Assembly: GCA_013697245.1 (NCBI GenBank)
Contig: JACCXH010000049.1
Span: forward strand, 1 to 64,000
Reading direction: 5' to 3'
Source: Bacteroidota bacterium
GTDB taxonomy: Bacteria; Bacteroidota; Bacteroidia; B-17B0; Aurantibacillaceae
Length of the DNA stretch: 64,000 nt
The notes under the pieces: generated by a model
Seen by the model: only the letters and a program-made list of their open reading frames with translations
Told to the model about the DNA's origin: nothing
The model's database searches: none
Shown: positions 39,688-59,669 of the stretch, in pieces
Layout of the letters: each line of letters starts with the position of its first letter
How positions within the stretch are numbered: position 1 is the first letter of the stretch
Made by a program: the position numbers and the translations under genes

Positions 39688-40800
39688 TTAGGCCCACTTC
39701 TTTATCAATACCATGGCGGTTTCTACCATATAATCTGTCCACAATGCAGGTTGCCATCCGGTTATTTGTTTAGTTTGCAATAGTTGAATTGTTTTATCCA
39801 CATCTTTATTTGCAAAAAGTGTATCAATAATAAATTGCTGCTCTTTTCTAAGAATATTATCCTGTAAAGGTTTTAAGGGTACTTTATGATCGATCTTTTT
39901 CCTTTTAATTTTTTCGGTTGGACTTTCTGCTTTTTTTCTTTGTGAAGAAACGATCTTTTTTATTTGTTTAAAGTCTTTTACGAATTGTAATTTATCTTTT
40001 TCAGTTTTTATAGTGTTGCCTAATCGTTCAAAGATCACATATTCTACATTTTCACAAAATGGTAATGCTTCTTTTAATAATTCAAAAACTTCTTTAGGCA
40101 CGGCTTCATCGTGTGTATCTCTTCTTACTTTATTTTTACTTGTCTTAACAGTAGCCCAACTGCCACCGGAGATATGAATTTCTTTTACTTTGTGAAGGGG
40201 ATACGATTTGATCAGCTTTAAAGCATCTACCTTAAAATTATGTGATTGGCACCAGATATTGTGAAGGTCTAAAATTAAAAAGCCGTTAACGGGCTCTAAT
40301 AATTTTTCTAAAAATTCGCCTTGTTCTTTTATTTGTTTGTTGCTAAATGCAAAGGCCAGGTTCTCGATGCCAATAGGTAATTGCGAAATATTTTGTAAAC
40401 GCTTTAAACGATCTTGTCCAATAGCTAAAGTTGTTTTGTTGAATGGAACGGGCAGGGGAGTGCCTTTATGAAAATCGTCGGATGACATAAAACCAAAATG
40501 CTCGGTAACATGCCTATAATTATATTTTTTTACTTCGATGGCAAGTTGTTTTAGCCATTTTCCCTGGTTACCATCCCAAAGGCCTTTTAAAAGCGAATAA
40601 CGAACGCCGTGTCCAATTAATCTGCCGCGTTTTGAATACTCGCTTAAAAGCAAACTAAGCCATTGTGGTTCTTTGCTTCCTGATCGGATGGTATCGAATG
40701 ACCATTCTATAACATCAATTTCTCCGGACTGAAACAATGGAAGCGCCGCCTCAATAAAATCGGCTTCGGGCATTAAAGATATTCCAACCCATGGGTTCAT
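39688..40800 (-). CDS. DUF692 family multinuclear iron oxidase (MNIO), likely RiPP-modifying enzyme
   Basis: 370 residues from the ATG at 40800; the frame opens with TTG at 40806. The TIM-barrel metal-site motifs of MbnB/TglH-type enzymes are all seen: GHGVRYS (His64), HVTEHFGFMS (Glu100, His101), IENLAF (Glu146), LDLHNIWCQ (Asp178, Asn181), EIHISGG (His209) and DTHDEAV (Asp228, His230). Known members use two or three iron ions to oxidise Cys or neighbouring residues in precursor peptides. Residues about 287-370 form an added basic and helical region (ending GWQPALWTDYMVETAMVLIK) that could take the place of the separate recognition partner usual in these systems. It lies 90 bases downstream of four Cys-ended small secreted proteins on the same strand, which are its probable substrates. 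Confidence 0.88.
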   Translation of the reverse strand: MNPWVGISLMPEADFIEAALPLFQSGEIDVIEWSFDTIRSGSKEPQWLSLLLSEYSKRGRLIGHGVRYSLLKGLWDGNQGKWLKQLAIEVKKYNYRHVTEHFGFMSSDDFHKGTPLPVPFNKTTLAIGQDRLKRLQNISQLPIGIENLAFAFSNKQIKEQGEFLEKLLEPVNGFLILDLHNIWCQSHNFKVDALKLIKSYPLHKVKEIHISGGSWATVKTSKNKVRRDTHDEAVPKEVFELLKEALPFCENVEYVIFERLGNTIKTEKDKLQFVKDFKQIKKIVSSQRKKAESPTEKIKRKKIDHKVPLKPLQDNILRKEQQFIIDTLFANKDVDKTIQLLQTKQITGWQPALWTDYMVETAMVLIKKWA

Positions 40801-40820
40801 GATCAAATTTACAAAATAGT

Positions 40821-40884
40821 CGTTAGATTCTTGTCGTTAGTCAATAGCACAACACTGACTAAATTCTAACGGCTTTTGACTAAC
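40821..40884 (-). promoter_or_regulatory. Possible attenuator between precursor genes and MNIO gene
   Basis: Two alternative pairings exist. In one, CGTTAGA (40821-40827) pairs with TCTAACG (40865-40871) while TTAGTCA (40837-40843) pairs with TGACTAA (40856-40862). In the other, GTTAGTCAA (40836-40844) pairs with TTGACTAAC (40876-40884). They share one arm, so both cannot form at once. No T tract follows, so this is not a simple terminator. Confidence 0.45.
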
Positions 40885-40890
40885 CACTAA

Positions 40891-41103
40891 TTAGCCCATT
40901 CCACAAGGCGGGCAGTAATCGGCAGTGATAGGTCTGCTTTTATTTTTAGAAACTTTTACAGAATCTTTTTTTGCATTTTCAGTTTTGGTATCCTTAACGG
41001 TTGTGGTCTTCGTTTTTGATTTGTCGTCCACTTTTGGTTTTGGGGTTTGTGCTACAGCGCTAAAGCTGATCAGGGCACTTAAAACAATAGCTGATATTTT
41101 CAT
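40891..41103 (-). CDS. Putative MNIO precursor peptide 4 (CPPCGMG end)
   Basis: 70 residues. A signal peptide (MKISAIVLSALISFSAVAQ) precedes a Lys/Thr/Asp-rich, probably unstructured spacer and the C-terminal YCPPCGMG. The two Cys are the only ones in the protein. It shares the MKISxIxLxALISFS start and the CxxCGxG end with three upstream genes while the spacers differ, as expected for precursor peptides under selection at their ends. Last precursor before the MNIO gene. An alternative is a small periplasmic metal-binding protein that is not modified. Confidence 0.78.
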   Translation of the reverse strand: MKISAIVLSALISFSAVAQTPKPKVDDKSKTKTTTVKDTKTENAKKDSVKVSKNKSRPITADYCPPCGMG

Positions 41104-41144
41104 AATATAATTTTTAAATTGTAAATCAAAAAATTGTCAATTTT

Positions 41145-41372
41145 TTATCCCATTCCGCAACCAGGACAATACCTGTGCGAGTGGTTAGGTGTATTATTTG
41201 AAACAGAGTCAACCGAATTGTGCTTTCGTTTTGCTTTTTTTGTCGAATTGCATTTAGTAGTTTTTACTTTAGCAGTTGTATCTTTTTCTTTAAAACTAAC
41301 CGGCTTATCCTGCGCAAAAGCGTTTGCGCTAAAACTTATAAGGGCACCCATTGCTATAGTTGATATTTTCAT
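41145..41372 (-). CDS. Putative MNIO precursor peptide 3 (CPGCGMG end)
   Basis: 75 residues. Signal peptide MKISTIAMGALISFSANAFAQ, a very basic spacer with an extra Cys (TTKCNSTKKAKRKHN), a His pair near the end (NHSHRYC), and the C-terminus YCPGCGMG. The His residues beside the CxxC end would help bind a metal such as copper or zinc. It lies 41 bases upstream of precursor 4. Confidence 0.78.
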   Translation of the reverse strand: MKISTIAMGALISFSANAFAQDKPVSFKEKDTTAKVKTTKCNSTKKAKRKHNSVDSVSNNTPNHSHRYCPGCGMG

Positions 41373-41412
41373 AATATTTTTTTAATCTTGAACCTTTAAC
41401 TTTAAACCAAAC

Positions 41413-41628
41413 TTATCCTCTGCCGCAAGCTTCGCAAACCTTTGGCGAGTATTTAGGCTCAACTAATAAAGTTGAATCCCTTACAGCTAATTGGTTCTTT
41501 GAATTTACACATTTTGTTTTTATAGTTTTAGTGTGCTTTACTTTTGTAACCGTTTTAGGTTTTTCCTGCGCTAAAGCAGTTACACTTAAACTTACCAGGG
41601 CTCCGAGAGCTAATGTGGATAATTTCAT
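41413..41628 (-). CDS. Putative MNIO precursor peptide 2 (CEACGRG end)
   Basis: 71 residues. Signal peptide MKLSTLALGALVSLSVTALAQ, a Lys/Thr-rich spacer with one internal Cys (IKTKCVNSKN, at the same relative place as in precursor 3), and the C-terminus VCEACGRG. It lies 40 bases upstream of precursor 3. Confidence 0.78.
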   Translation of the reverse strand: MKLSTLALGALVSLSVTALAQEKPKTVTKVKHTKTIKTKCVNSKNQLAVRDSTLLVEPKYSPKVCEACGRG

Positions 41629-41680
41629 TTTTGTTGTTTTTATTAAGATGCTTGTTTTGGAATAATTCCATAAAATTCAA

Positions 41681-41920
41681 TTAACCCTTTCCACATTTGC
41701 CACAAGAGCTTAAATTATTAGGCAGTAACTCGCTTTTAGGGGCAACACCGTTCGGTTTAAGTTTGTTTTGCTTAACAGTTTTGCTGTTTTTATAATTAAA
41801 CGACGTAGCTTTTCTTACAACCTTTAAAGAATCGCCAAAAGCAGGGTTTTGACTTGCATTGGCACTTAGGCCAAGGCTAAAGCTTATCCATGTTTTAAGG
41901 GCTATTGCAGATAATTCCAT
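41681..41920 (-). CDS. Putative MNIO precursor peptide 1 (CGKCGKG end)
   Basis: 79 residues, the most divergent of the four. The start MELSAIALKTWISFSLGLSANA keeps the family pattern, but the n-region has Glu where the others have Lys and a Lys sits inside the hydrophobic core, so export may be weak. The end SSCGKCGKG keeps CxxCGxG. It is the first gene of the operon; no clear promoter box could be found in the 74 bases upstream. Confidence 0.72.
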   Translation of the reverse strand: MELSAIALKTWISFSLGLSANASQNPAFGDSLKVVRKATSFNYKNSKTVKQNKLKPNGVAPKSELLPNNLSSCGKCGKG

Positions 41921-41994
41921 GTTTCTTTCGTATTAGGATGCGGGATCTTTTTCTTTTCCATAAAACAGAACCATTTTTTTAATAAATTTATTCA

Positions 41995-59362: not shown

Positions 59363-59562
59363 GCTTTTTACTAATTTTAATTAAGGAGATCTAGTAAATG
59401 TCTATTCTATTGGCGTTTAGTTTTAAATGATTAATATGAGCAAATATAGATTAATTTGGCGAAAGGCTAAAATTCAACTGTTAAAAACGTTAAAATTTTG
59501 AGTGAAACATGCTTTTTACTGAGTGAATGAATTTGACTCCCTCAAAAAAAGGCATAAAAAAA

Positions 59563-59657
59563 GGGTAAGCTACTCTCATCGCACCGCTCAACCGCATACC
59601 CTTGCTTTGTTCCCAACCTGGGGGATTCTGTAGGAGCTGGTCGTGAAAGACTTACCC
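59563..59657 (-). ncRNA. ffs: Bacterial small signal recognition particle RNA (4.5S-type)
   Basis: On the minus strand the transcript begins GGGTAAGTC and ends GCTTACCC, which pair to close a long hairpin. Near the apex is the SRP domain IV: CCCAGGTTGGGAACAAAGCA, with a GGAA tetraloop closed by UG/CA, the CAGG 5' side and the AAGCA 3' side of the Ffh-binding internal loops. The 3' end runs into seven T (minus strand). The length of about 95 nt fits the small bacterial type. It binds Ffh (27796-29133) and FtsY (31102-32061). Confidence 0.9.
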
Positions 59658-59661
59658 GTGG

Positions 59662-59669
59662 CAAAATTA
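59662..59669 (-). promoter_or_regulatory. -7 promoter element of the SRP RNA
   Basis: On the minus strand TAATTTTG matches the Bacteroidota -7 consensus and ends five bases before the GGGTAAG 5' end of the RNA. The rest of 59670-59914 is AT-rich and shows nothing else. Confidence 0.6.

Follow-up and report, generated by a model that had tools for sequence, protein, structure and literature searches.

The closest described relatives of this locus are the ChrH/DybH subfamily of MNIO (DUF692) enzymes, which carry an extra C-terminal domain, have no partner gene and are paired with a precursor ending in CPxCGxG (PMC12636315), a tail said to be conserved throughout the subfamily; the literature documents both this tail and the missing partner protein for ChrH as well as DybH (PMC10214503, PMC12636315). 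The ChrH reaction rearranges the sulfur of the first Cys, all of the second Cys and two amide nitrogens, one from the Gly that follows and one from tail position 6, and the ring residues tolerate change. Thiols are consumed (both in ChrA, one in DybA), the DybA product has no absorbing ring, and the characterised reaction yields no thiooxazole or oxazolone-thioamide chelator. The tail alone is shown to be enough for modification (Chen et al., PMC12636315), and the literature reports no function for chryseobasin-type peptides.

Three groups of known systems frame the comparison. In Chryseobacterium (ChrA/ChrH, PMC10214503; locus L047), the paper lists further chr genes, ChrI, ChrE and ChrP, in the chryseobasin cluster, ChrI being later reported dispensable. 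DybA/DybH, ChsAH and HymAH (PMC12636315) are minimal, consisting of precursor(s) and an enzyme with a fused C-terminal helical domain and no partner, their precursors being described there as lipoproteins with a lipobox Cys. HvfABC (oxazolin) and BufABC (bufferin) combine an MNIO enzyme and a Sec-exported Cys peptide with a separate partner, and make a thiooxazole or oxazolone-thioamide product.

The operon described here shares with ChrA/ChrH a full-length enzyme homology that includes the C-terminal domain, together with a signal peptidase I type leader, a Lys-rich spacer, a C-terminal CPxCGxG and a precursor directly upstream of the enzyme. Unlike the Chryseobacterium loci, which hold one precursor in 27 of 29 scanned and none in two, it has four; it consists only of precursors and enzyme, and two of its cores lack Pro. 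With DybA/DybH, ChsAH and HymAH it shares the minimal layout but not the lipobox, and with HvfABC and BufABC the enzyme superfamily and the exported Cys peptide but neither partner nor predicted product. The layout had been thought unlike any well-described one. That is mostly mistaken, since a C-terminal domain fused to the enzyme, a missing partner and the CPxCGxG tail are all features of the ChrH/DybH subfamily as Chen et al. (PMC12636315) describe it.

Operon layout and enzyme

Five genes in the window (the whole stretch of 64,000 nucleotides that was analysed) form one functional-looking RiPP operon of the ChrH/DybH subfamily, preceded by a probable control region:

39688–40800, minus strand: MNIO (DUF692) enzyme of the ChrH subfamily, 370 aa (PF05114, NF050165, AlphaFold, Foldseek)
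40891–41103, minus strand: precursor 1, 70 aa, Sec signal, tail CPPCGMG (ORF; NF050124 ChrA E=8e-9, below cut-off)
41145–41372, minus strand: precursor 2, 75 aa, Sec signal, tail CPGCGMG (ORF; NF050124 E=2e-9, below cut-off)
41413–41628, minus strand: precursor 3, 71 aa, Sec signal, tail CEACGRG (ORF; NF050124 E=7e-5)
41681–41920, minus strand: precursor 4, 79 aa, Sec signal, tail CGKCGKG (ORF; without a family match alone)
41921–41994, minus strand: divergent upstream region, probable operon promoter and leader (conserved in five genomes)

All four small ORFs, proposed earlier as tandem genes with a signal-peptide N-terminus and a CxxCGxG end, are confirmed on the minus strand. Gaps of 40–90 bases separate the five same-strand genes and no gene intervenes. 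The enzyme ORF can start at a TTG (39688–40806) or an ATG (40800), the ATG being the likelier start. Partner, DUF1772, DUF2063 and RRE-like families are absent from the scanned genes neighbouring the operon. Scans for sigma-70 promoters and terminators gave results close to shuffle levels, and an Rfam scan of the operon returned no RNA element. Elsewhere in the window, a Bacteroidales-type small SRP RNA (RF04183, 98 bits) lies at 59559–59664 on the minus strand.

The enzyme matches PF05114 (E=3e-35) and aligns with NF050165 (MNIO_ChrH) over model positions 2–360 of 363 at 454 bits, below the curated cut-off of 600 bits; the HvfB and BufB models give only 92–100 bits against cut-offs of 310–360. 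Judged by these profiles, it is of the ChrH type and not HvfB or BufB, and the bufferin/oxazolin combination of an HvfB/BufB-type enzyme with a DUF2063-type partner is absent. Residues H64, H101, E146, D178, H180, H209, D228, H230 and E258 are invariant in an alignment of 31 relatives, bearing out the earlier claim that the next gene on the strand is a DUF692 enzyme with its metal-site motifs; which of them serve as metal ligands we take from general knowledge of the family. The AlphaFold model (pLDDT 93, pTM 0.92) predicts a TIM barrel (about 1–287) followed by a fused C-terminal helical domain (about 315–369) of three helices (315–330, 334–343 and 356–369), and Foldseek against the PDB places TglH and MbnB as its top solved structures. 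PF05114, the barrel and the His/Asp/Glu ligands assign the protein to the MNIO superfamily, and the fused extra domain to the ChrH/DybH subfamily.

By score, the operon falls outside chryseobasins in the strict sense (enzyme 454 against 600 bits; precursors at most 38 bits against the ChrA cut-off of 50). It also lacks ChrI (DUF1772), the one PF08592 (DUF1772) domain of the genome being on contig C30, unlinked to the operon. The enzyme is 49% identical to ChrH of Chryseobacterium sp. JM1 (L047); for comparison, the JM1 enzyme scores 686 (NF050165) and its ChrA 107 bits (NF050124). JM1 appears to be the strain used in the published study, and its ChrA the peptide modified in the experiments, judging by the fit of this ChrA to the described peptide (Cys63, Cys66 and an 11-residue LysC fragment). 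In a tree of 72 enzyme sequences, made by a quick method, the operon's lineage (7 genomes, support 91) forms a group distinct from both Chryseobacterium ChrH (100) and a large clade (98) with mostly lipobox precursors, which we take to be DybH-like. At the positions that distinguish Chryseobacterium enzymes from DybH-type ones, the enzyme here splits 4:4:2, which favours neither a methylated nor an unmethylated product.

Precursor tails, leaders and inheritance

Precursors 1 and 2 carry the CPxCGxG tail adjacent to the enzyme; precursors 3 and 4 keep CxxCGxG with the Pro missing, and position 6 is Arg (3) or Lys (4). All four fall below the ChrA and ChrA-related cut-offs, and precursor 4, the most upstream and most diverged, alone matches neither; a precursor profile of the lineage, built with precursor 4 included, finds it at 1e-19. 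The leaders end in AFAQ, ALAQ or AVAQ and, assessed by eye and by composition, have a signal peptidase I look as in ChrA, and the DybA-type lipobox Cys is absent from all four. The Lys-rich spacer that the earlier note gave to each precursor is there in all four, with the description fitting least well in precursor 4 (41681–41920).

Only S4, A18 and the tail C, C, G and G are common to 19 precursors of the lineage; set against the atoms that the ChrH reaction moves, the retained residues include those the chemistry needs, and Pro is not among them. Across the whole 4.4 Mb genome, CxxCGxG followed by a stop occurs at 6 sites, 4 of them in this operon (the reversed control pattern gives 2). The other two, on contigs C29 and C30, were discarded as they end no plausible gene, and the tail motif is therefore not a matter of chance.

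Orthologues were found in 4 further species for precursor 1, 2 for precursor 2 and 3 each for precursors 3 and 4. Over the seven tail codons, none of the four classes shows a single amino-acid change (pN=0), at a pS of 0.54–0.88 (0.57 for precursor 3, 0.88 for precursor 4); the spacers have pN/pS of 0.33–0.74 within classes. With pN=0 in all four, the non-Pro tails are as strictly kept as the Pro tails, and since each class keeps its own tail between species, this argues for four distinct products and not redundant copies.

A wider survey covered 87 subfamily loci with 112 precursors. One precursor per locus is the rule; two or three occur in 12 loci outside the operon's lineage, and four, the maximum among the 87, only within it. 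Arg or Lys at tail position 6 is found in 13 of 18 multi-precursor loci versus 3 of 65 with a single precursor (Fisher p=7e-9), and in 7 of 12 multi-precursor loci once the operon's lineage is left out (p=3e-5). Both p-values come out too small because of relatedness among the loci, though three groups show the pattern. Multi-precursor loci (L029, L030, L032, L033, L034, L167, L172, L201, L202, L206, L207 and L208) tend to combine a CGMG-type precursor beside the enzyme with a CGRG or CGKG type further upstream, L167 being an exception in this order. Non-Pro tails make up 18 of the 112 precursors, including CITCGRG, CLDCGRG, CGPCGMG and CRACGMG beside the same enzyme family in other lineages.

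An in-frame start offers an N-terminus of the form M[KETDN..][ILVM][SP] in 104 of the 112 precursors; for signal-like control ORFs at these loci the figure is 5 of 111. Members from Planctomycetota, Myxococcota and Omnitrophota carry this form as well. Nearly every precursor opens with MK[IL][SP], under signal peptidase I and II type leaders alike and in several phyla. Since the tail alone suffices for modification, as Chen et al. show, this motif must serve something else and suggests a leader constraint beyond the published tail-only model of recognition; one guess is that it times export to let the cytoplasmic enzyme act beforehand.

A scan for enzyme and precursors in 37 genomes of the genus found the two together in 6, and no genome with the enzyme lacked precursors. 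Strong precursor-profile matches are confined to these 6 and G026, and intact precursors are found, within the genus, only where a ChrH-type enzyme occurs. The chance of 6 enzyme genomes falling inside 7 precursor genomes of 37 is ~3e-6 with relatedness ignored. Within the genus, the proposed counter-check, for small proteins widespread without a DUF692 gene, thus favours the link between the two. In G026, an orthologue of precursor 4 lies at the same syntenic place at a contig end (contig C160, L121:1-341), its CGKCGKG tail interrupted by a repeated sequence that resembles the end of a mobile element; a search of G026 for a ChrH-type enzyme found none.

Within the genus, the whole operon is either there or missing as one block. 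Orthologous small genes keep the same order and syntenic place in related species, three or four copies being present in each. A MuiA-family gene and a DUF4886 gene flank the operon in G000, G006, G007 and G019; in G012 and G061 these two genes lie next to each other, with about 75 and 115 bases between them, and the operon is cleanly missing. G021 (L126) and G022 (L119) have it at another site, where both share one set of four neighbouring genes; PorP/SprF and PKD/PD40 proteins of the type IX secretion kind are among those of G022. An internal TAA in the G021 enzyme was dismissed, as it lies directly ahead of the ATG of an intact gene. Such block presence and absence between sister species provides a comparison for studying function.

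Predicted chemistry and alternative readings

On the operon, homology, predicted fold, co-inheritance and tail constraint observed above, we put at roughly 0.86 the probability that one enzyme modifies four different secreted CxxCGxG peptides by ChrH/DybH chemistry into macrocycle and hydantoin tails. This supports the earlier assignment to an MNIO-RiPP operon with Sec-exported precursors and a Cys tail as putative substrate. What is new is the conserved four-substrate set, two of them with unusual tails; the chemistry is of the published kind (chryseobasin/DybH). Four differently tailed substrates for one enzyme also make a natural panel for its tolerance.

Taking characterised relatives as the guide to the chemistry, the route of export and the sequence of steps, the enzyme's own C-terminal helical domain would stand in for a partner protein, and an iron cluster with O2 would perform, in the cytoplasm, a four-electron oxidation of each precursor's CxxCGxG. 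The sulfur of the first Cys would be joined to the β-carbon of the second, giving a macrocycle; the carbonyl of the second Cys would move between the amide nitrogens of Gly and position 6, giving a hydantoin, and its thiol would migrate to the α-carbon. The predicted mass change is −4 Da if this thiol is free and +10 Da with the S-methylation that ChrH performs, and the product would be a Cys–Cys macrocycle plus hydantoin, not a thioamide or thiooxazole metal site. Modified peptides would then exit by Sec and lose their leader to signal peptidase I, the expected outcome being four soluble, mostly basic peptides with ring residues PP, PG, EA and GK and, beside the hydantoin, the side chains of Met, Met, Arg and Lys (precursors 1–4).

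Tentatively, and on balance we lean against it, the neutral and cationic members may form a joint secreted product, a fixed set of four macrocycle-hydantoin tails that includes uncharacterised cationic, Pro-free ones. If true, the recurrence of CGRG/CGKG in multi-precursor loci would reflect a division of labour.

For CEACGRG and CGKCGKG, modification is predicted: the ChrH/DybH literature consulted reports no non-proline core as modified. An unlikely alternative takes only precursors 1 and 2 as substrates, with 3 and 4 diverged into decoys, immunity or regulatory peptides or unmodified partners; the conserved CPxCGxG described for the subfamily and the divergence of precursor 4 would fit. Against it, tail conservation is no less strict in precursors 3 and 4 than in 1 and 2, the invariant C, C, G and G are kept, and among the non-Pro tails found elsewhere beside this enzyme family, those in L194, L196 and L064 belong to the sole precursor seen.

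Metal buffering, suggested in the earlier note, is quite unlikely, a weak guess; on this reading the secreted products would chelate copper or zinc as bufferins and oxazolins do. MNIO enzymes often make metallophores, metal binding is conceivable for CxxC tails on Lys-rich secreted peptides, and an HvfA-type oxazolin cluster in the same genome means that the organism uses such chemistry; but that separate cluster already has its own partner and DoxX, the enzyme here scores far higher as ChrH than as HvfB/BufB, no metal-transport or metal-regulator gene was recognised adjoining the operon, and the ChrH reaction is described as using up thiols. Neutral duplication into amplified, decaying copies without distinct roles, which the tandem head-to-tail paralogues, the variable copy number and the one broken copy might suggest, is highly improbable and largely refuted by paralogues that predate the species splits, each with orthologues in order, and by purifying selection on every tail.

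The second MNIO cluster of this genome (contig C57, L163:8367-10812) is canonical: an HvfA-like precursor with repeated DGKCGE/EGKCG is accompanied by an HvfB-type enzyme (383 bits, over the cut-off), a DUF2063 partner and DoxX.
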